NCBI GenBank assembly: GCA_021817785.1
Contig: JAKAFY010000014.1
Location: 1-40,764 of the forward strand
DNA: 40,764 nucleotides
Origin: a bacterium
GTDB taxonomy: Bacteria; Patescibacteriota; Microgenomatia; UBA10105; UBA927
Reading direction: 5' to 3'
Numbering within the stretch: position 1 is the first letter of the stretch; every line of letters starts with the position of its first letter. The translations under genes were made by a program, and so were the position numbers. Shown here one piece after another: positions 27,740-38,247 of the stretch. A model generated the notes under the pieces. The model ran no database searches and was not told where the DNA came from. It saw only the letters and a list, made by a program, of their open reading frames with translations.

Positions 27740-28924
27740 ATGCTCATCAAGCCAGATTTAGCCAGATTTGCGAAAATAAAGGTTGTCGGTATCGGCGGCG
27801 GCGGGAGCAATGCGGTCAATTCCATGATCATCAACAACCAGATCAATGGAGTGGACTTTATCTCCGTCAATACCGATGCCCAGGCGCTTTTGTTGTCCCA
27901 GTCCCAAAATAAAATCCAGATCGGTGAAAATCTGACGCGGGGTTTGGGCGCCGGCGGCAGTCCGGACATAGGCAGGCAGGCGGCAGAGGAATCCCGGGAA
28001 AAAATTGCGGAATATCTGCGCGACTCGGATATGGTGTTTTTGACCTGCGGCGAGGGCGGAGGTACCGGCACCGGGGCTACTCCCGTGTTTGCCGAAATTG
28101 CCAAGGAATTGGGAGCGCTTACCGTGGCGGTGGTCACCAAACCGTTTCACTTTGAAGGTACACGCCGGATGGTGAGCGCCGAAGAGGGGATTGCTAACCT
28201 CAAAGACAAAGTAGACACGCTCATCGTCATCCCCAACCAGCGGCTGCTCGAAGTCATCGATAAAAAAATGACGTTACTGGAAGCGTTTCGGGTGACGGAT
28301 TCCGTGTTGGGACAAGGCGTACAGGGTATTTCCGACTTGATCACCATGCCGGGACTTATCAACGTCGACTTTGCGGATGTGCGTACGATCATGACCAATG
28401 CCGGCTCGTCGCTGATGGGTATCGGCACCGGGGTTGGGGAAAACCGCGCATCCACTGCGGCACGCACCGCCATCGCCTCCCCGCTTCTGGAAACGACGAT
28501 TGAAGGAGCCAAAGGAGTCCTGTTTAACATCATCGGAGGCAACGACTTAACCATGGCAGAAGTGGATGAAGCGGCCAAACTGATATCGTCGGCCGTCGAC
28601 CCGGATGCAAACATCATTTTCGGCGCTACGATCGATGAGAAATTGGTCGACCAGATCAAAATTACCGTGATTGCCACGGGATTTGACGAAACCAAACGCC
28701 GTTTACGTGAGCTTTCCGGCCGGCCGGTACAGGACAGCCGGTATGGAGCGCCCCGCGCGACGTCGTACGGCAAACCCGTACCTCCGGCGCCGCAGGCACA
28801 GCCCATCACCGAACAGCCGGTCTCGCATCAGCCGCCGCAACCCACATTTGCGCCGCGGGAGGACATCGTCCCTCCGGAGGAGGACGAATTCGACATCCCC
28901 GCATTTCTGCGCCAGCGGAGCTAA
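27740..28924 (+). CDS. ftsZ: Cell division protein FtsZ
   Basis: Tubulin-like GTPase that forms the Z-ring. The 394-aa product has the N-terminal [13 protein letters not shown] (about residues 15-27), the tubulin signature [12 protein letters not shown] (about 103-114), the T7 loop with [10 protein letters not shown] (about 209-218), then a Pro/Gln-rich flexible linker (about 335-380). It ends in the conserved C-terminal peptide [10 protein letters not shown], which binds FtsA. All GTPase elements are intact. It is the last division gene of the cluster; the P-loop kinase starts 3 nt after its stop. Confidence 0.97.
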
Positions 28925-28927
28925 AGA

Positions 28928-29692
28928 ATGTCCAGACTTGAACATATTCCACTCAATCAGCCCTCAACGTATTTTTTGTACGGTCTATTCGGAGAAGAGC
29001 ATCTGGCGCGTCGGAAACGATTACTCGCTTGGCGGACAACATATCATGCATTTTCGCTTCAGGATTCGCAACACGCGGACATCATGCTGGCAGATGCTGT
29101 ATCCCGGACGATAGAAGAACGGAACAGGCTCGGGCGAAAGAAGTCTCTGACTGATTTTATTGTTTTTGTAGCGCATCAAGGTGTAGGGAAGGATTATATT
29201 GCAGATCATATGTATCGGAACGGGTATGCGCGGATTACGATGTCTGATATCGTCCGTAGCGTGGCTCCCGTTTTAGGATACAGCCCTGATAGCACCCAGG
29301 GAAAAATAGACGCGGGTCATGTAATGAGACGCATGTTTGGCAAAGGTATATTTGTAGATCTAGGCGTGCGGGAGGCAATGGAACGCGGAAAAAAGCGGAT
29401 CGTCATGACTGGACCGCGTTCTTCTTTGGAAATACGTACTGCGAAAAAGTATGGCGCGAGAATCGTTGGTTTAATAGCCGATATTGATCCCAAAACGGAC
29501 TGGGCAATCCGTTTGGAACGTGCTACGAGGCCTCGTAAACAAAAAGGGAGTGCTGTACGTGTCATGACGAAACAAGATTTTATAAGTCGTGAGCGGCAGG
29601 AAAAAAGAAGGATAAACCGACTCATGGCTTTTGCGGAAATAATTGTGGTCAATAATCGTCCGGCGAGGAAAGTGATTAGTGAGCTGATATAA
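28928..29692 (+). CDS. P-loop nucleotide kinase-like protein
   Basis: Product of 254 aa with a P-loop near residue 82 (FVAHQGVGKDYIADHM) followed by RITMSDIVRSVAPVLG. This resembles dephospho-CoA kinase and (deoxy)nucleoside monophosphate kinases of the AAA_18/CoaE group. Basic residues in ERATRPRKQK (about 196-205) could form the lid. The first 75 residues have no recognised domain; an internal ATG at 29084 would remove most of them and still give a complete kinase. It follows ftsZ by 3 nt, so it is probably co-transcribed. The substrate is unknown; nucleotide or coenzyme A metabolism is inference. The repeat-rich island begins directly downstream. Confidence 0.65.
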   Translation: MSRLEHIPLNQPSTYFLYGLFGEEHLARRKRLLAWRTTYHAFSLQDSQHADIMLADAVSRTIEERNRLGRKKSLTDFIVFVAHQGVGKDYIADHMYRNGYARITMSDIVRSVAPVLGYSPDSTQGKIDAGHVMRRMFGKGIFVDLGVREAMERGKKRIVMTGPRSSLEIRTAKKYGARIVGLIADIDPKTDWAIRLERATRPRKQKGSAVRVMTKQDFISRERQEKRRINRLMAFAEIIVVNNRPARKVISELI

Positions 29693-29790
29693 ACTCACGT
29701 TGCGATAAAGTCAGTAACACAGCCTAAGTCATGCATAGATGCAATAAGAATAATCTAAATCGTTAATGTCTTGCGAGGATTGTTAAAAAG

Positions 29791-29836
29791 GAGTAGCTTG
29801 GGGTTTGAGAGTGGAGACTAGGCAACTAATCTCCAC
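29791..29836 (+). repeat. Island repeat A, copy 1
   Basis: It has the pattern GAGTAGCTTGGGGTTTGAGA followed by the hairpin GTGGAGA (29811-29817) / TCTCCAC (29830-29836). Similarity to copy 2 extends upstream as CYTGCGAGGA (29770-29779). The distance from TAGCTT to GTGG is 17 nt in all three copies. It lies upstream of the first island gene and its promoter. Confidence 0.8.
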
Positions 29837-29849
29837 AAATGAAATCTTA

Positions 29850-29878
29850 TTGCGGTTTGTTTATTTGTAATTTATGAT
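29850..29878 (+). promoter_or_regulatory. Promoter of island gene 1
   Basis: TTGCGG (29850-29855), a 17-nt spacer and TATGAT (29873-29878), ending 8 nt before the ATG at 29887. No Shine-Dalgarno is present, so a leaderless transcript is likely. Confidence 0.55.
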
Positions 29879-29886
29879 ATATGTAT

Positions 29887-30534
29887 ATGGGTATATTTGA
29901 TTTATTTAAATCCTCAAAATATTCCAAAATGGATCAACAAATTTTGGAATCAACAATTCAAAATTATATAGCTACTGGATTTTCACCAAAAGATGCAAAA
30001 GACATGAGCACATCAATGCTTGATTCTTGCATTGCACAGTCCAAAAAAGACGGTACGTATGACCTGCCGGGAAATTTTGGAGACATAATGATAGGAGCCG
30101 TACATACGAGTGACCCTATCCTAGCTAAAGTATTTGATAAAATTAGAGAGAAACTTCCTATAAAAAGACAGGATGGTGTTAAGGATGAAGACATAAAGTG
30201 GTGGTGGAACTTGAATGATATTGAACGAAGAATGATGATAGCGCAAGACGATGCAAGTAAATTGAATTCATTCATGACGGATAGAAAAAAAGGAATGTCA
30301 AAGGAGGAGGCAGCTGTTAGAGTTAGAAAGTACTTTCCAATATATGGAGATCCTGAGGACATAACAAACGCCAGTGGGGACGACAGGCCATTACCTTATG
30401 AGCTCAAAGATCGGATAAATCTTTATATTGAAAAGAAGGTAAAGGGTAATACAGATGAATATAGAGATGAAATTGAAAGGTCTTCATCCTTTAACTCTTT
30501 AATTAGAAAAGAAATCAAAGCCAATAATATATAG
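29887..30534 (+). CDS. Island gene 1: soluble protein of unknown function
   Basis: A 215-aa, highly charged, mostly helical protein without membrane segments or signal peptide. The start MGIFDLFKSSKYSK resembles the amphipathic N-terminus of many small cytosolic proteins. Later parts include a Lys/Asp-rich stretch (about residues 95-110, KDEDIKWWWNLNDIERRMM) and a C-terminal Glu/Lys-rich helix. I recognise no family. An in-frame ATG at 29881 sits only 2 nt after the -10, so 29887 is preferred. The base composition is clearly AT-richer than the division cluster, consistent with recent acquisition. It lies between repeat A1 and repeat B1. Confidence 0.65.
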   Translation: MGIFDLFKSSKYSKMDQQILESTIQNYIATGFSPKDAKDMSTSMLDSCIAQSKKDGTYDLPGNFGDIMIGAVHTSDPILAKVFDKIREKLPIKRQDGVKDEDIKWWWNLNDIERRMMIAQDDASKLNSFMTDRKKGMSKEEAAVRVRKYFPIYGDPEDITNASGDDRPLPYELKDRINLYIEKKVKGNTDEYRDEIERSSSFNSLIRKEIKANNI

Positions 30535-30611
30535 TTATTAATTTATTATTGCTTAGATTCATGTTTTGGAAAGTTGAATAAGAACTAAAATTGACTTAAA
30601 GTATTTTCTTT

Positions 30612-30697
30612 GCTACATTCCTCTTGAAGATTTCATACATGCATGATTGAAGATAGGGTGTCCTAGAAATCCCCGCCTTTTTGAGGCAGAGAAGTTA
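30612..30697 (+). repeat. Island repeat B, copy 1
   Basis: The left end GCTACATTCCTCTTGAAGA (30612-30630) and the right end ATCCCCGC (30669-30676) through GGCAGAGAAGTTA (to 30697) are shared with copies 2 and 3; the middle is variable. Left and right ends are complementary with bulges (TTC-C-TCT against AGAGAA, and TA-C around an unpaired A). The last bases TTA form the stop codon of the reverse-strand phosphatase gene. Confidence 0.75.
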
Positions 30698-31309
30698 ATT
30701 GCGTATCAATCCAGATATGGAGATACCTTCTATATAAAATGAATTGCCTCTTGCTGTGAGAATAGCTGTGTTTTGAATACGAATTTTCCCCATATCTTTG
30801 TAGTACTGCATATTCATAAGATTCAAGAGATATCGCATAATTCCTGCGTGTGACACGAGTAAAACGTGTTTGCCAACGTACTCTGAGATAACTTTTATCA
30901 AGAACGGGTGAAGTCGTTCTGCAATAGAAATATCGGTTTCCATACCTGATAATCCGAATAAACCTGAATAAGGTAAACGTGTAAGAAAATGACCTCGATT
31001 CGGTCGTGTATATTGAAAGGAATGCCCCTCATATATGCCAGCATCACGCTCAATAAGAGCTTTATCTATTTGTACGGGAAGATGCTTTGAACGGGCGATA
31101 ATATCCGCGGTTTCTCTCGCTCTGCTAAGTGGTGATGAGTAGATTGCATAAATAGGTATATCTTTTAGTGTGCGTATTATATTATGGGCTTGTTTTATGC
31201 CTGTCCTATTAAGAATTATATCTGTATTACTCATAACCACCCCAGCCGTTTCACCATCTGTTTGGCCATGACGGATGAAATGTAGGTATGTATATTCAGG
31301 ACATTTCAT
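30695..31309 (-). CDS. Island gene 2: histidine phosphatase family protein
   Basis: Branch-1 histidine phosphatase of 204 aa, distinct from the one at 4106. It has HFIRHGQTDGE near residue 10, SSPLSRARETADII (about 58-71), ERDAGIYEGHSF (about 87-98) and the second catalytic His in LLVSHAGIMRYLLN (about 149-162). The catalytic set is complete. Substrate unknown. It is the only island gene on the reverse strand. Its stop codon lies inside the end of repeat B1, and its start is about 100 nt from repeat A2. TATAAT ends 6 nt before the ATG, and no Shine-Dalgarno is seen. Confidence 0.85.
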   Translation of the reverse strand: MKCPEYTYLHFIRHGQTDGETAGVVMSNTDIILNRTGIKQAHNIIRTLKDIPIYAIYSSPLSRARETADIIARSKHLPVQIDKALIERDAGIYEGHSFQYTRPNRGHFLTRLPYSGLFGLSGMETDISIAERLHPFLIKVISEYVGKHVLLVSHAGIMRYLLNLMNMQYYKDMGKIRIQNTAILTARGNSFYIEGISISGLIRN

Positions 31310-31315
31310 AACGTA

Positions 31316-31321
31316 ATTATA
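31316..31321 (-). promoter_or_regulatory. -10 hexamer of island gene 2
   Basis: A perfect TATAAT on the reverse strand, 6 nt before the ATG at 31309, placing the predicted transcript start at the start codon. No convincing -35. Confidence 0.55.
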
Positions 31322-31394
31322 TCATACTATAGGTTTATATTAATCTAATGAAGTCTACACATTGATAAACTACGAGGCTAGCTAAAACTTAGAA

Positions 31395-31459
31395 CCTGCG
31401 AGGAACTAGGGGAGTAGCTTGGGGTTTGAGAGTGGGGACTAGGGTAACTTAATCCCCAC
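31395..31459 (+). repeat. Island repeat A, copy 2
   Basis: CCTGCGAGGA (31395-31404), GGAGTAGCTTGGGGTTTGAG (31411-31430), then the hairpin GTGGGGA (31432-31438) / TCCCCAC (31453-31459). Compared with copy 1 the fifth stem pair changed from A-T to G-C on both strands, so the stem is conserved by compensation. A second TARCTT-like motif (GTAACTT) lies in the loop at 31444. A T-rich stretch follows. Confidence 0.8.
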
Positions 31460-31460
31460 T

Positions 31461-31489
31461 TTTGTTTTATGAAAAAAGTATGCTAGAAT
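31461..31489 (+). promoter_or_regulatory. Promoter of island gene 3
   Basis: Extended -10 TGC-TAGAAT (31481-31489) with a weak -35 (TTTGTT, 31461-31466). The -10 ends 9 nt before the ATG at 31499. Confidence 0.5.
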
Positions 31490-31498
31490 ACCGAAATC

Positions 31499-31840
31499 AT
31501 GAAAATTAAGACAGTATCTGCTAAAGGAGAACGCTTGGTTGAGGATGCTCAGGGAGCGCTCCGTAGGTTTAAGAGAAGGACGGGACAACATCTAAGCGTG
31601 TTTGGTGCAGGTCCTGGACTTATGGGTCATGCTGAAACTGCGCTTAACCCAACTGCTCATGGAGATGGTGCTCATGTCAGCGATAGGGATGATGTGGTGT
31701 TTGTAGAAAATTTGTACGAACGACCAGTTAGAACAAAGCCAGAAAAAACCTTTAGTTTGTTTGGATCGGGTGAAATACAGGTAGAAGATACGCAACCAAA
31801 ACCTCGTCAACGAGTTCTTAAACTTAAGATAGCAGTTTAA
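31499..31840 (+). CDS. Island gene 3: small protein of unknown function
   Basis: A basic 113-aa protein. The N-terminus (about residues 1-30) is rich in Lys and Arg and probably helical. The middle contains Gly/His-rich segments (GHAETALNPTAHGDGAHVSD, about 43-62), and the C-terminus ends in RQRVLKLKIAV. There is no signal peptide, membrane segment or known catalytic motif. I do not recognise it. It sits between repeats A2 and B2 with its own promoter, in the same arrangement as island genes 1 and 5. Confidence 0.55.
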   Translation: MKIKTVSAKGERLVEDAQGALRRFKRRTGQHLSVFGAGPGLMGHAETALNPTAHGDGAHVSDRDDVVFVENLYERPVRTKPEKTFSLFGSGEIQVEDTQPKPRQRVLKLKIAV

Positions 31841-31873
31841 CAACAAGCGCTATTGTTATTTCCATTGTCGCTT

Positions 31874-31963
31874 GTTATATTCTTCCTGAAGACTGAATAA
31901 ATGCATGGTTCGAGTGAGATTGAGTGTCCCATAAACCTCGCATTTTTGAGGCAGAGAAGCTGA
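31874..31963 (+). repeat. Island repeat B, copy 2
   Basis: Left end GTTATATTCTTCCTGAAGA (31874-31892), right end CCTCGC (31936-31941) through GGCAGAGAAGCTGA (to 31963). The two ends again pair with bulges. The changed bases at the extreme ends (GTTAT against GCTGAT) stay compatible through G-U pairs. An inverted repeat (ACAAGCG with CGCTTGT, about 31843-31875) lies at its left border. Confidence 0.75.
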
Positions 31964-31989
31964 TAGTACGCTCTAAATCGATTAGTGAG

Positions 31990-31995
31990 TATAAT
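31990..31995 (+). promoter_or_regulatory. -10 hexamer of island gene 4
   Basis: A perfect TATAAT ends 7 nt before the ATG at 32003; no Shine-Dalgarno. Confidence 0.55.
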
Positions 31996-32002
31996 ATCCT
32001 TC

Positions 32003-32356
32003 ATGGCGACACGAAAAGATGTAATACTAGCAATTCGTGAAATAAGGAATGATATTTTTGCTAGGTCAAAAAGTGGAAATGCTCACGATAAGCTTCGTAA
32101 CAGATGTGAGCGAGTTGACGATGTTGGGTTGGGAGGTCAAGGTTATGGCAGCGTGGAAATGATAGATCCCCTTTTTCCATCAGAGCGTGGTCATAGTGTA
32201 TGTATTGTTCCAAAGCGAGGACTGGGTGGTTGGATAGCAAGTCTCACTGGAAAGAAAATAATTGGAAGTGTACGGAATAGAAAGGATGATATAGAAGTAC
32301 AGCGTGAGCTTAAGTCTTTAACTGGCGCACATAAATGGAAGCGTAGACATAAGTAG
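32003..32356 (+). CDS. Island gene 4: small basic protein of unknown function
   Basis: A 117-aa basic protein. The first third is a charged helix (ATRKDVILAIREIRNDIFAR), the middle is Gly-rich (VGLGGQGYGSV), followed by PKRGLGGWIASLTGKK and a very basic C-terminus (HKWKRRHK). It could bind nucleic acid, but no domain is recognised. An in-frame GTG at 31985 would overlap the -10, so the ATG at 32003 is chosen. The stop codon is 4 nt before the TAGCTT of repeat A3, and repeat B2 lies 40 nt upstream of the start, so the gene is tightly bounded by repeats. Confidence 0.55.
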   Translation: MATRKDVILAIREIRNDIFARSKSGNAHDKLRNRCERVDDVGLGGQGYGSVEMIDPLFPSERGHSVCIVPKRGLGGWIASLTGKKIIGSVRNRKDDIEVQRELKSLTGAHKWKRRHK

Positions 32357-32358
32357 CT

Positions 32359-32405
32359 GATAGCTTGGGATTTGAGAGTGGGGATTACGGAAACGTAGGC
32401 CCTAC
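32359..32405 (+). repeat. Island repeat A, copy 3
   Basis: ATAGCTTGGGATTTGAGA then GTGGGGA (32378-32384), with the stem closed by CCCTAC (32400-32405) through one G-U pair. An inner hairpin TACG-GAAA-CGTA adds a GNRA-type tetraloop. Only the downstream part and the TAGCTT-17 nt-GTGG spacing are shared with copies 1 and 2; upstream is the end of gene 4. Confidence 0.7.
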
Positions 32406-32421
32406 GCAAGGAGTTTCGAAG

Positions 32422-32450
32422 TATACAAAATGTTGTTATTATCCTATAAT
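32422..32450 (+). promoter_or_regulatory. Promoter of island gene 5
   Basis: TATACA (32422-32427), a 17-nt spacer and TATAAT (32445-32450), ending 6 nt before the ATG. No Shine-Dalgarno. Confidence 0.6.
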
Positions 32451-32456
32451 ATATAA

Positions 32457-32846
32457 ATGGGAAAAATACTAGAGACTGTATATCATCCACCCGTGGAAAT
32501 TCGTGACCCTGACAACGTCAACGCTGCGGTTCGTGCAATAAGAAATACAGGCAGTCGTAAAGCTCGAATATTCTACACAAACAAGACAGAAATAGATATT
32601 ACCGATCATCGTTGGACAGAACCTACTCATAGGTGGTTATTAACGGTTCATCAGGATGGTTCTGGATTGGTAAATATTAAAGCAACAGCACCGGATAGCG
32701 CTATCCATGAACTTGGTGCTGGTCAAATGAGAGAATTAGTAAAAGTAATTCGTAGTGATGAAGAAACCTGCTTAATGGGATGGAGCACATCTCGAGGAAG
32801 GCGACGCGCTTTGGTATTTAAAACGCTACGTTATATCCCAGATTGA
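32457..32846 (+). CDS. Island gene 5: small protein of unknown function
   Basis: A 129-aa soluble protein, probably alpha/beta. A helix with repeated Ala/Arg (VNAAVRAIRNTGSRKARIFY, about residues 22-41) is followed by strands (TEIDITDH, HRWLLTVHQDGSGLVNIKAT) and a C-terminal basic part (GWSTSRGRRRALVFKTLRY). No catalytic motif, signal peptide or membrane segment. Not recognised. It has a clear promoter giving a leaderless mRNA and lies between repeats A3 and B3. Confidence 0.6.
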   Translation: MGKILETVYHPPVEIRDPDNVNAAVRAIRNTGSRKARIFYTNKTEIDITDHRWTEPTHRWLLTVHQDGSGLVNIKATAPDSAIHELGAGQMRELVKVIRSDEETCLMGWSTSRGRRRALVFKTLRYIPD

Positions 32847-32863
32847 TTATAGATTTGATGCAA

Positions 32864-32984
32864 GTTACATTTTCTCTTGAAGACCTAAAAATATATTCTT
32901 TCTGTTAATTCCGTTAGGGGAGTATTGAAGCTAAAGTCAATTCCTGTCTTATAAATCCCCGCATTTCTATATCAGCGAAGTTAG
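32864..32984 (+). repeat. Island repeat B, copy 3
   Basis: Left end GTTACAT followed by CTCTTGAAGAC (32864-32884), right end ATCCCCGC (32955-32962) through CAGCGAAGTTAG (to 32984). The middle is about 30-35 nt longer than in copies 1 and 2. The ends remain partly complementary. This copy closes the island. Confidence 0.7.
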
Positions 32985-33020
32985 CCTACAAGGAGAGTCC
33001 TCGTAGGTAATTTTATTTTC
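32985..33020 (+). terminator. Hairpin at the right border of the island
   Basis: CCTAC (32985-32989) pairs with GTAGG (33003-33007), and GGA with TCC inside, followed by a T-rich stretch. It may terminate transcription of island gene 5 before the peptidase gene. Confidence 0.45.
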
Positions 33021-33081
33021 ATTCACTTCAATTGGTTCGGATGAACGATACTGATGGGGTATACTATACTGCAGAAACGCC

Positions 33082-33741
33082 ATGTACGTGTATACCATTA
33101 TCCGCCTCCCACGTCGAACACTATCCCTTCATATCCACGAAAATGGTGAGTTGGAGGTGAGGGCGCCGCGCTATGTTCCTGAACGTATTATTCGCCGGTT
33201 TGTAGATTCCAAGCAGGAATGGATAGAGAAAACGAGGCAGAAGCTGGCCACCGCACCTAAAAGTAAAAAACCAACGTATCAAGAGGGAGAAGCGTTCCGT
33301 TTGGGAGGCAGGGAATACTCGTTACATATCACCGATGGCAACGCAATTGTCCTTACTCCGACAAAATTATTTTTTCCTAAAAAGTTTTTAGTACGACCAA
33401 CGTATCACATGGAGGCATTTTGCCGCACATTTGCCAAGCAATTTTTGACACACCGGTTGGATTTCTATGCCAAAAAAATGAACGTGTCTTATAAACGGAT
33501 TTCTATCCGCGATACGACAAGTCGTTGGGGGTCGTGTTCGAATACCGGCACTATAAGTTTTTCCTACCGGCTTATAGTAGCCGAACTTCCTATCATTGAT
33601 TATGTCGTCATCCATGAGCTTGCGCACCTCACGTATCATCATCACAAACCATCTTTTTGGGCTCACGTTGCCACGCATTATCCAGACTATATAGCTGCCA
33701 GGACATGGCTCCGTCGTGAAGGGCATACGCTCAAAATTTAG
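33082..33741 (+). CDS. YgjP-type zinc metallopeptidase (DUF45/M48-like)
   Basis: A 219-aa protein of the YgjP/SprT-like family. The N-terminal beta-rich half (IIRLPRRTLSLHIHENGELEVRAP is typical of the family) is followed by the conserved RDTTSRWGSCSNTGTISFSYRL (about residues 145-167, RWGSC is diagnostic) and the zinc site H178-E-L-A-H182, with a further His/Pro pair in HHHKPSFW. Members are predicted metal-dependent hydrolases; substrates are mostly unknown. It ends 51 nt from the convergent membrane-protein gene. TATACT repeats (33060-33070) upstream may be its -10, but the spacing (11 nt) is longer than for other genes here. Confidence 0.88.
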   Translation: MYVYTIIRLPRRTLSLHIHENGELEVRAPRYVPERIIRRFVDSKQEWIEKTRQKLATAPKSKKPTYQEGEAFRLGGREYSLHITDGNAIVLTPTKLFFPKKFLVRPTYHMEAFCRTFAKQFLTHRLDFYAKKMNVSYKRISIRDTTSRWGSCSNTGTISFSYRLIVAELPIIDYVVIHELAHLTYHHHKPSFWAHVATHYPDYIAARTWLRREGHTLKI

Positions 33742-35094: not shown

Positions 35095-35206
35095 CCCGCC
35101 TCTAACGGCGGGTAAAATCCCGCAATCAACGGGAGAGGCCCCACTACGCGTAAGGCTACGCGGGGCAAGCTGAAGAAAGAAATGGATCCCCAATCAGGTC
35201 GGGGAT
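35095..35206 (+). repeat. Cluster of short palindromes in the ileS leader
   Basis: Non-coding stretch with several hairpins: CCCGCC/GGCGGG (35095-35112), the overlapping alternative GCGGG/CCCGC (35108-35123), CCCC with CGCG/CGCG and GGGG (35139-35165), and ATCCCC/GGGGAT (35186-35191, 35201-35206). The last one, with flanking GG and GACA, resembles short dispersed palindromic elements of other genomes, but only one copy is in this window. Confidence 0.5.
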
Positions 35207-35221
35207 GACAAACCAAACTAG

Positions 35222-35382
35222 ACTCTTCCGGGAATGCCCGTCATAGCAATAAATGAAGAGTTCATAGCAAGAAAGTTCACAGTTCATAGATTATGAACCA
35301 GGAACCTGCATTGAACTGACTAAAGGTGGTACCGTGGGCAATCGCTCACCCTTTACGATATACTGAAGGGTGAGTTTTTTTT
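35222..35382 (+). promoter_or_regulatory. T-box riboswitch leader for isoleucyl-tRNA synthetase
   Basis: The T-box core AAAGGTGGTACCG lies at 35322-35334. Its UGGU bulge (35327-35330) would pair with an acceptor end ACCA, and A73 is the expected discriminator of tRNA-Ile. A perfect 7-bp hairpin GTTCATA-GAT-TATGAAC (35282-35298) stands in the place of Stem III. A short Stem I candidate is ACTCTTC/GAAGAGT (35222-35228, 35255-35261) enclosing CGGG/CCCG. The specifier codon cannot be fixed; AUA or AUC alternatives exist in the 3' side loop. The core can pair with CACCCTTT to form the antiterminator. Uncharged tRNA-Ile would allow read-through. Confidence 0.85.
35345..35382 (+). terminator. T-box-controlled intrinsic terminator before ileS
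   Basis: CTCACCCTT (35345-35353) pairs perfectly with AAGGGTGAG (35366-35374), followed by eight T that run up to the ileS ATG. As in the glyS leader, the only Shine-Dalgarno-like sequence (AGGGTGAG) is in the 3' arm of the terminator. Confidence 0.85.
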
Positions 35383-38247
35383 ATGGACTTAAAAGTAAAA
35401 AACTATCAGGAAAAATACGATGTTCCCAAAGGTGAGCATGAGGTGCTGGCCTACTGGGATGAGACAAAAGCGTTCGAACGGTCGGTTTCCGAACGGCCGG
35501 AATCCAAACGGTACGTGTTTTATGACGGGCCGCCGTTTGCCACGGGACTGCCGCACTACGGCCATATATTGGCCTCTACGGTGAAAGACGTCGTACCCCG
35601 GTATTGGACGATGAAAGGCTACCGCGTCGACCGCGTGTGGGGGTGGGATTGCCACGGCGTACCCATAGAAAACATCATCGAAAAAGAATTGGGCCTGAAA
35701 GGCGGGAAAAAGGGCATAGAAGCACTGGGCATCGACAAATTTAACAATGCGTGCCGCATGGCAATCCTCCGGTTTGATAAAGAATGGGAAAAGGTGATAC
35801 GGAGAATCGGCCGATGGGTGGATTTTGCGCATTCGTATAAAACCATGGATAAAACGTTCATGGAATCCGAATGGTGGGCGTTTAAGACGCTTTATGACAA
35901 AGGATTAGTGTATGAAGGACGCCGGGTTATATTGTATTGCCCCCGGTGTGCCACGCCGCTTTCGAATTTCGAAATCGCGATGGACAACAGCTACAAGGAT
36001 GTCGTAGATAATTCACTCTATGCCAAATTTGCCATAAAAGGAAAACAACATGAATATCTCGTAGCCTGGACGACTACCCCCTGGACGTTAATCGGAAACG
36101 TGGCACTCGCCGTCGACGCAGATGCGACATACATCGCCGTACAAGACGGAGAAGATATGCTTTGGATGGCGCAGTCCCGCGCCGCCGCACTCATGGATGG
36201 GAATGTCCATACGCTCAAAACGATGAAAGGAGCGGACATGGCAGGATGGGAATATGAACCGCTGTATACCTATATGCCGCTCGATGGGAAACGCGCGCAT
36301 TATGTGACAACTGCGGACTTCGTTTCATTGGAAGAAGGATCGGGAATCGTCCATACTGCCGCAATATTCGGAGAAGACGATTACCGGCTAGCGGTAGAAC
36401 GGGATCTGCCGCGGGTGCCGACGCTCGACGACCAGGGAAAATTCCTGGATTTTGTCACCCCGCTTGCCGGCGTGTTTTATAAAAAAGCAGAAGACTGGGT
36501 GATAGAGGATTTATCGAAACGCAATCTGGTGTTTCTCGCGGAAAAAATGACGCATTCATACCCGTTCTGCTACCGCTGCGAGACGCCGCTCTACTTTAAC
36601 GCCGTACCCGCCTGGTTTATCAACGTGCAGAAACTGAAGCCGGACCTGATCGCGCAAAACGAAAAAATAAACTGGTATCCCGGACATTTGAAACACGGCA
36701 GATTCGGTAAGGGTCTGGAAACAGCGCCGGATTGGAATGTGTCCAGAAGCCGCTATTGGGGGACGCCCATGCCTGTTTGGAGAGAAGTGAACAGTAAGCA
36801 GTTGACAGTTGACGGTAACGCAAAAATACGAATTATCGGATCACTTGAAGAATTAAAACAGTGGGCCGTGGATCCTGAGAAAGTAGACAAACTTACGGAT
36901 ATCCATCGGGAATTTCTGGATGACATCGACGTCTGGGTAGATGACAAAAAAACCATAAAAGGCAAACGCATACCGGAGGTATTTGACTGCTGGGTAGAAA
37001 GCGGCAGCATGCCGTTTGCATCTATCCACTATCCGTTCGAGCATGAAAAGGTATTTGAGCAAAGCCACCCTGCACAGTTTATCGCCGAATATATCGCGCA
37101 GACGCGCGCATGGTTTTACACCCTGCACGTCATGTCCGTAGGACTTTTTGGGAAACACACGTTTGATAACGCAGTGACCACCGGGACCATACTCGCGTCC
37201 GACGGCAGCAAAATGAGCAAATCCAAGAAAAATTTCCCGGATCCAACTACACTCATGGAAAAATACGGCGTGGATGCATTGCGGTTTTATCTCATGGGAT
37301 CAGTGGTTATGAAAGCGGAAAATCTGAACTTTTCCGAGGACGGGGTGAAGGAAGTGTATCAAAAAATCGTGTCAATCGTCTGGAACGTATGTAGTTTTTA
37401 CAAACTCTATGTATCTTCTCCCGCCCCGGATGCTGCCCCCAACGCCGTCCACGTCCTGGACCGCTGGGTGATGAGCAAGCTCAACGGGTTTGTGGAAGAT
37501 ATGACGTTTGCGATGGACCACTATGACACCGTCGCTGCATGCAGACTGATATCGGAATTCGTAGCAGACCTGTCGACGTGGTACTTAAGACGCAGCCGCG
37601 ACCGCATACAGGAAGACCGTAACGCACAGGCAGTATTCGGATGGGTGCTTCGGGTATTGGTGACGGTCATGGCGCCGATCACGCCATTTATCACCGAGCG
37701 CATCTACCAAAATCTGGCGGACCAAACGGATTCGGTACATTTGGAATCATGGCCAAAATTTGATGCAGCATATATCGACCTTAAACTGGAAGAAGAAATG
37801 GTATTGGCACGAGAAATTGTTGAAATTGCTCATGCGGCAAGAAAGCAATCTGCTATTAAGTTACGTCAACCATTATCTTCGGCGGTCGTGACGGTCGTAA
37901 AGCCGTTGTCAGACGATGTACTCGGTGTTATAAAGGATGAAATTAATGTATTGGAAGTAACTCAAATAACTGGTACTGCCGCAGGCGTCATGTTTAATAC
38001 CACCTTAACTCCGGAATTAATTGCATTGGGGACAGCCCGTGGGCTTATCCGCGAGATTCAGGTGCTTCGGAAAGAAAAAGGTTGTACTATAGATGGACAT
38101 ATCCGTCTGACATTGCCGGAAACATATAAAACGCTTTCCAAAGATCTGTTGGCAATGGTGCAGAAGGAAACAGTAGCAGAAGATATCTCATGGGGAACCG
38201 ATCTTTCCATATCTACCACGCAGGCGACCACCACGTTGACTGGGTAA
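35383..38247 (+). CDS. ileS: Isoleucyl-tRNA synthetase, eukaryote-like (type 2)
   Basis: Class I synthetase of 954 aa that charges tRNA-Ile. The HIGH motif reads HYGH (about residues 58-61) in DGPPFATGLPHYGHILA, followed by GYRVDRVWGWDCHGVPIEN. KMSKS is intact (in SDGSKMSKSKKNFPDP, about residue 613). The editing domain (WTTTPWTLIGN, about 227-237) is present. The HYGH and DCHG forms are typical of type 2 IleRS, usually less sensitive to mupirocin. A small in-frame insert (VNSKQLTVDG, about 469-478) is encoded by short heptamer repeats after the YWGTPMPVW segment. The gene is under T-box control. Its 3' end overlaps the rodA start by 58 nt. Confidence 0.95.
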   Translation: MDLKVKNYQEKYDVPKGEHEVLAYWDETKAFERSVSERPESKRYVFYDGPPFATGLPHYGHILASTVKDVVPRYWTMKGYRVDRVWGWDCHGVPIENIIEKELGLKGGKKGIEALGIDKFNNACRMAILRFDKEWEKVIRRIGRWVDFAHSYKTMDKTFMESEWWAFKTLYDKGLVYEGRRVILYCPRCATPLSNFEIAMDNSYKDVVDNSLYAKFAIKGKQHEYLVAWTTTPWTLIGNVALAVDADATYIAVQDGEDMLWMAQSRAAALMDGNVHTLKTMKGADMAGWEYEPLYTYMPLDGKRAHYVTTADFVSLEEGSGIVHTAAIFGEDDYRLAVERDLPRVPTLDDQGKFLDFVTPLAGVFYKKAEDWVIEDLSKRNLVFLAEKMTHSYPFCYRCETPLYFNAVPAWFINVQKLKPDLIAQNEKINWYPGHLKHGRFGKGLETAPDWNVSRSRYWGTPMPVWREVNSKQLTVDGNAKIRIIGSLEELKQWAVDPEKVDKLTDIHREFLDDIDVWVDDKKTIKGKRIPEVFDCWVESGSMPFASIHYPFEHEKVFEQSHPAQFIAEYIAQTRAWFYTLHVMSVGLFGKHTFDNAVTTGTILASDGSKMSKSKKNFPDPTTLMEKYGVDALRFYLMGSVVMKAENLNFSEDGVKEVYQKIVSIVWNVCSFYKLYVSSPAPDAAPNAVHVLDRWVMSKLNGFVEDMTFAMDHYDTVAACRLISEFVADLSTWYLRRSRDRIQEDRNAQAVFGWVLRVLVTVMAPITPFITERIYQNLADQTDSVHLESWPKFDAAYIDLKLEEEMVLAREIVEIAHAARKQSAIKLRQPLSSAVVTVVKPLSDDVLGVIKDEINVLEVTQITGTAAGVMFNTTLTPELIALGTARGLIREIQVLRKEKGCTIDGHIRLTLPETYKTLSKDLLAMVQKETVAEDISWGTDLSISTTQATTTLTG
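36787..36813 (+). repeat. Heptamer repeat inside ileS
   Basis: A short tandem repeat with the unit CAGTTGA (two perfect copies after a degenerate GTGAACAGTAAG). It is translated as part of VNSKQLTVDG. Similar AGTTCAY heptamers lie in the ileS leader (35274-35288). Confidence 0.6.

Follow-up and report, generated by a model that had tools for sequence, protein, structure and literature searches.

The 40,764-nucleotide contig JAKAFY010000014.1 analysed here (the window) comes from a Patescibacteria genome of 1.28 Mb that is 96.7% complete, and at 29693-33081 it carries an island in which three copies each of two repeats, A and B, alternate strictly with five unrelated short open reading frames (ORFs), gene 2 being inverted. 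The question that this locus raises is what the repeats are and how such an island was put together. An initial annotation, made from the letters alone, had described a cassette-like array, and its account of the layout holds up: the repeats were recovered independently (A at 29794, 31415, and 32361; B at 30659, 31924, and 32945); they touch gene ends, the stop codon of gene 2 (30695-30697) lying inside the end of B1 and gene 4 ending at 32356, 4 nt ahead of A3; the island has a G+C content of 36-42% versus 49-56% for most of the flanking DNA; only gene 2 has a Pfam family (His_Phos_1), leaving four of the five products unrecognised; and no integrase gene is found in the units. What was missed is that B is the 3' end of ftsZ and, as sequence comparison identifies it, the attachment site of an ftsZ-targeting integrase. 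The island is very probably a tandem of three very small, recombinase-less elements, cis-mobilizable or satellite-like, that integrated at the 3' end of ftsZ with a recombinase provided in trans.

When B1 is read in frame, ATC CCC GCC TTT TTG AGG CAG AGA AGT TAA, it encodes IPAFLRQRS*, and FtsZ has the same C-terminal tail; its gene borders the island on the left and ends at 28924. A degenerate B pattern with up to three mismatches was searched in the whole host genome and matched only ftsZ and B1-B3, all on one strand, while the reversed control gave 0 matches. Since the fourth match (28895-28923) is the 3' end of ftsZ itself, the start of the island has to be moved from 29693, where it had been placed, to 28925, and the kinase-like gene is thereby included. 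With this left border, B0, taken in, the island spans 28925-32984 and is ordered as B0-kinase-A1-gene1-B1, gene2-A2-gene3-B2, and gene4-A3-gene5-B3, followed by ygjP. The second and third units are those that had been proposed if B marks the borders, and the first now joins them. The B core is a 28-bp inverted repeat of the form 11-6-11 with the spacer CCCCGC, in keeping with the two inverted half-sites and 6-8 bp spacer of a tyrosine-integrase core. Its half-site symmetry is 6.6/11 compared to 3.05 in shuffles (shuffle maximum, 4.09), and many cores are accompanied by adjoining TTGAAGCTA or TAGCTTCAA sites.

Copies of the ftsZ end are not confined to the window. In a class-wide survey of 374 genomes, 79 matched the ftsZ-end pattern, and in 15 of these, from families f1, f4, f17, and f30, it recurs on the contig and strand of ftsZ, 1.4-7.5 kb downstream of the gene; the reversed control gave none. 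Thus, the feature that marks an integrative element with a tyrosine integrase, the target gene's 3' end directly repeated at the far border, is seen in B1-B3 and in these 15 genomes. One inverted copy was found in G293, and in G001 and G151 a copy lies on another contig. Closer to the window, the congeneric G004 carries two more, located 1.7 and 2.3 kb downstream of ftsZ, and two genomes of the same family, G011 and G015, have one extra copy each. The copy in G015 follows that host's own variant of the tail, IPAFLRQKN*, as encoded by its ftsZ. The named contigs with an element-type site are from Gottesmanbacteria, Levybacteria, and other Patescibacteria.

The search for further copies and the comparison of gene content had been suggested with the initial annotation, which would have been set aside by a lack of copies and a fixed gene order; copies and rearranged content were both found. 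In the congeneric G002 the site is empty and ftsZ is directly followed by ygjP. The kinase-like gene is patchy (10 of 96 genomes searched) and has a close homologue in G002 only, where it lies downstream of ygjP, and gene 1 was matched in no other of 223 genomes. The G004 genome carries A-gene3-B in other gene company than the window does. Array content therefore turns over between related species, and to this extent the cassette-like, mobile character that had been proposed stands. In G002, G009, and G084, contigs break off precisely at the core's first base or directly behind its spacer, which suggests mixed occupancy of the site in these samples.

A tyrosine recombinase had also been proposed as something to look for elsewhere, and a family of them proved to be linked to ftsZ in relatives. 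In G311, G100, and G371, the 6-7.5 kb element bounded by ftsZ and the copy of its end has a full tyrosine recombinase gene adjoining ftsZ, and in G022 a broken one is found at ftsZ. When the 374 genomes were searched with the integrase, all eight matches below 1e-50 (G371, G001, G100, G278, G311, G173, G268, and G022) were beside the 3' end of ftsZ. The integrase domain is PF00589 with E-values of 1e-30 to 1e-32, and the catalytic residues are conserved. One of these genomes, G001, shares its genus with the window. The viral contig L187 (IMGVR_UViG_3300027835_000014) carries such an element, flanked by two ftsZ-end cores and encoding an integrase of its own; next to it are tailed-phage genes with a second, distant integrase. 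The identity of B with the ftsZ end, the extra copies in relatives, the recombinase adjoining ftsZ, and the inverted-repeat core together are the reasons for regarding B as an attachment site. As a separate observation, this tailed-phage contig has its own integrase next to an ftsZ-type core, and a 6 kb element in tandem, which suggests that ftsZ serves as a site for the phage as well and that its hosts are Levybacteria-like.

These results give good support to the unit structure and to site-specific integration at ftsZ, and the attachment sites B0-B3 flank three units with no recombinase among the unit genes, as in cis-mobilizable elements (CIMEs). We propose that a tyrosine recombinase provided in trans inserted the units successively into the ftsZ 3' end. 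This recombinase would recognise the 28-bp core, whose two 11-bp half-sites around CCCCGC coincide with codons of the FtsZ tail IPAFLRQR, and the crossover would leave a complete ftsZ, since the missing gene end comes with each element. Every insertion would leave another ftsZ end, which would account for B0 to B3. Cognate integrases are encoded in relatives, on the elements of 6-7.5 kb that occupy this position. Three observations weigh against this proposal. The cognate integrase was not found in the host genome, which gave no match at 1e-20 and whose only two PF00589 proteins are both nearest to XerC/XerD; B2 is degenerate, with one base deleted; and A in the window is 0.4-0.9 kb from the nearest upstream core, which is far for a classical arm site. 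Since the host genome has no integrase of the ftsZ-linked family, the array may be immobile at present. The window units also have no integrase gene of their own, and it is in the relatives' elements that one is present. The features are listed in Table 1.

Table 1. Features of the ftsZ-linked island and its flanks (window positions)
Feature	Position	Strand	Basis
ftsZ; 3' end is the integration site (well supported)	27740..28924	+	Pfam Tubulin 2.1e-49, FtsZ_C 3.4e-34; present in 29/29 relatives searched
B0, left island border: core GAATTCGACAT-CCCCGC-ATTTCTGCGCC, then gene end	28886..28924	+	B pattern, 0 mismatches; core alignment
Nucleotide-kinase-like gene, first unit, between B0 and B1	28928..29692	+	PHROG dNMP kinase 6e-7
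A1: block TTGCGAGGA..GGAGTAGCTTGGGGTTTGAGAG and 26-nt hairpin 29811-29836	29770..29836	+	Repeat, pattern and folding analyses
Gene 1, 217 aa, no assigned function	29881..30534	+	No Pfam, NCBIfam or PADLOC family; weak PHROG match
B1, attachment-site copy: core 30660-30687 GTCCTAGAAAT-CCCCGC-CTTTTTGAGGC; reads IPAFLRQRS*	30620..30698	+	Pattern and core alignment
Gene 2, histidine phosphatase superfamily, second unit, inverted	30695..31309	-	PF00300 2.9e-39
A2: TGCGAGGAACTAGGGGAGTAGCTTGGGGTTTGAGAG and 28-nt hairpin 31432-31459	31395..31459	+	Repeat, pattern and folding analyses
Gene 3, 113 aa, no assigned function; G004 has A-gene3-B	31499..31840	+	Comparison with G004
B2, degenerate attachment-site copy; reads NLAFLRQRS*	31880..31963	+	Pattern and comparison with G004
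Gene 4, 117 aa, third unit, no assigned function	32003..32356	+	No family found
A3: TAGCTTGGGATTTGAGAG and 28-nt hairpin 32378-32405	32361..32405	+	Repeat and folding analyses
Gene 5, 129 aa, no assigned function	32457..32846	+	No family found
B3, right border: core 32946-32973 GTCTTATAAAT-CCCCGC-ATTTCTATATC; reads IPAFLYQRS*; arm-like site TTGAAGCTAA directly before core	32873..32984	+	Pattern and core alignment
ygjP, host metallopeptidase gene, right flank	33082..33741	+	PF01863 1.4e-55; adjoins ftsZ in G002

This leaves the A repeat to be explained. Its core pattern gave three matches in the whole host genome, A1-A3, and 0 in the reversed control. It consists of a block (TTGCGAGGA.. and GGGAGTAGCTTGGGGTTTGAGAG) followed by a hairpin of 24-28 nt, and the hairpin folds in all three copies with z values of -2.3 to -2.8 against shuffles, whereas the two B copies that were folded, B1 and B3, do no better than shuffled DNA. 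Of the two repeats that had been called structured, only A therefore deserves the term. The window A core was sought in 96 relatives with almost no matches beyond the window, and outside the window A is recognisable only with a loosened pattern. Found in this way, an A-type block with hairpin is seen in the viral element, about 115 bp from its core, and another precedes a cargo gene in G001. Our best guess is that A acts in cis as a further conserved component of these elements, kept by the units after the loss of their integrase genes, and that it would most likely be the binding site of the integrase or of a partner protein.

Elements of other families have, at a comparable place before the last cargo gene, the motif TTAGCYTCAA and then a 28-nt palindrome with the half-sites GTCGYA/TGCGAC. 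This palindrome, of 26-28 nt (GTCGCAAAAGTATTATTGTGCGACAT), also occurs class-wide, mostly once per genome, in 177 of the 374 genomes. The one at G000:C4:32780-32805 (-) sits 1.6 kb from a Xer gene, and of 30 loci 9 have a xer gene close by. In one complete genome the dif-like site, at 818,859, lies near the skew switch at about 660-790 kb. The class-wide palindrome is most likely the chromosomal dif site of this Patescibacteria class. The A repeat was considered as a dif site and rejected, because its half-sites differ, GTCGYA/TGCGAC being absent from A as well as from B in the window and present within elements of relatives, and because the viral element in L187 has both kinds of site at different places. 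A role of A as an origin of single-stranded DNA synthesis or as a terminator was dropped as well; A1, A3, and the viral copy have no T-run, and a terminator scan was empty there. In L193 (G006:C12, about 8500), TTAGCCTCAA and a dif-like palindrome accompany a different, distantly related integrase that is not located at ftsZ; this type of motif is therefore not limited to ftsZ elements.

The alternatives to a tandem of units bounded by ftsZ ends were weighed against these results. One, which we consider rather unlikely, is a two-site cassette system in which A and B are both recombination sites and A-gene-B is exchangeable independently of the part from the core to A. The stretch of high identity between the window and G004 starts at A and ends with the B core, the sequences to the left of A being different, as this system would have it. 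A also stands 81-93 nt before the next start codon although the genes that follow are unrelated, and the equivalent place in other elements is often taken by a 28-nt dif-like palindrome that matches the half-sites of the class-wide site. On the other hand, A in the window (GTGGGGAC..ATCCCCAC) is not of this type, as described above for it and for L187, and a single shared cassette could equally have come about by homologous recombination. With a similarly low probability, the locus could belong to a class-wide platform anchored at ftsZ, where B would be read by an ftsZ-specific integrase that larger elements or phages provide, and A (or the dif-like site in its place) by that integrase or the host Xer proteins. 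Modules of one or two genes could then be added to the stack and exchanged while encoding no recombinase themselves, in the manner of an integron with an essential gene as the landing site.

It is also doubtful, to about the same degree, that A is an RNA element, namely a regulatory RNA that paired with the integrase leader and was left behind as a remnant after the integrase gene was lost. A 22-nt part of A does recur just before the start codon in integrase leaders, with 19/22 identities in L151 and L153 and 17/22 in L062 (0 of 2000 shuffles), the hairpin is retained despite sequence change, and the TTGCGAGGA block is complementary to CTCGCAA stretches of the leaders. However, the two blocks are ordered differently in A and in the leaders, the leaders in L187 and L152 match the 22-nt block no better than shuffles do, and units without an integrase would have no use for such an RNA.

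Two other explanations have very little left in their favour. If the end of ftsZ had been duplicated segmentally and unrelated genes inserted with no site-specific recombinase, tandem copies beside the parent gene would be expected, and they are seen, but this origin is very improbable: most copies stop at the IPAFL codons and bear a conserved left arm, GTCYTADAAAT, in the position of ftsZ codons such as GAATTCGACAT, and since this arm is absent from ftsZ (the copies in G368, with GGGACAT, are the exception) they are not simple duplications; moreover, relatives have recombinase genes at this very place. The reading of the island as an array of integron cassettes, B being the attC, is refuted, in spite of the small AT-rich genes with unrelated products between repeats, by the identity of B with the ftsZ end and by the missing integron integrase, the host's two PF00589 proteins being Xer-like, and B is a short 11-6-11 core and not a folded attC, so in its integron sense the cassette reading falls.

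The closest known systems to the units bounded by ftsZ ends are cis-mobilizable elements accreted in tandem, as in the Dehalococcoides ssrA islands. There, islands stand in tandem downstream of an essential gene present in one copy, and the 3' end of that gene is directly repeated at the border of each; 15 of the islands have no integration module and were called possible cis-mobilizable elements (PMC3146451). The tandem 3'-end repeats and a left arm that differs between gene and repeats are common to both (PMC3146451), whereas the ssrA islands involve a serine recombinase and an RNA gene as target, and the ftsZ system a tyrosine recombinase and a protein-coding gene, with units in the window of only about 1-2 kb and with A sites. 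In the accretion of CIMEs, attachment sites are retained while integration genes are lost, and newcomers integrate in the attachment site of the older element (PMC5704250). Attachment sites without integration genes and stacked integration are found here too, but the ftsZ units show no sign of being decayed conjugative elements and are the size of gene cassettes. The dif modules of Acinetobacter plasmids are small gene modules between recombinase sites (PMC13141974). Small modules between sites are a shared trait, and relatives' elements carry dif-like sites, but A in the window is not dif, the borders are ftsZ ends, and the location is chromosomal. In the composite islands of the staphylococcal cassette chromosome (SCC), stacked elements occupy the 3' end of a single conserved protein-coding gene and some have no recombinase; unlike the ftsZ island, these have serine recombinases (Ccr), larger elements, and another target gene.

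A literature search restricted to open-licence papers found no report of ftsZ as such an integration site. One of the most conserved bacterial genes is an integration hotspot across several families of one Patescibacteria class, and the hotspot is linked with an integrase family, a tailed phage, and defence-type cargo. The ftsZ end offers a route to mobile genes and to phage-host links in bacteria that have tiny genomes and are mostly unculturable, and the recombinase-less mini-units would illustrate how single genes can travel without an integron.

As to the cargo, elements of relatives carry defence-type genes, including an AbiP2-like reverse transcriptase (9e-173), PDC-S02 and PDC-S45 candidates, and NYN nucleases. 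PADLOC gave no family and no defence match for six window proteins, a search for a viral homologue of gene 5 found none, and the AlphaFold2 models of genes 1 and 5 are of low confidence, with predicted local distance difference test (pLDDT) values of 46 and 37. The initial annotation had given each gene its own promoter; good sites do precede genes 2 and 5, but the number of promoter-like sites, 10, is no higher than the 11.3 in shuffles. In L109 (G001:C3), a filamentous-phage-type replication protein (Phage_CRI, 5e-10) is encoded at 1199-2239, just to the left of an A site and a cargo gene, and some elements may therefore replicate by rolling circle. At the end of the same contig, an ORF at 31-258 with SLIHISEPTRQ resembles sequencing-adapter read-through. 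An Rfam search of the region gave sub-threshold matches only, among them a weak T-box-like match at 35173-35356 (+) of 28 bits, below the family cut-off, which lies ahead of a large aminoacyl-tRNA-synthetase-like ORF at 35383.

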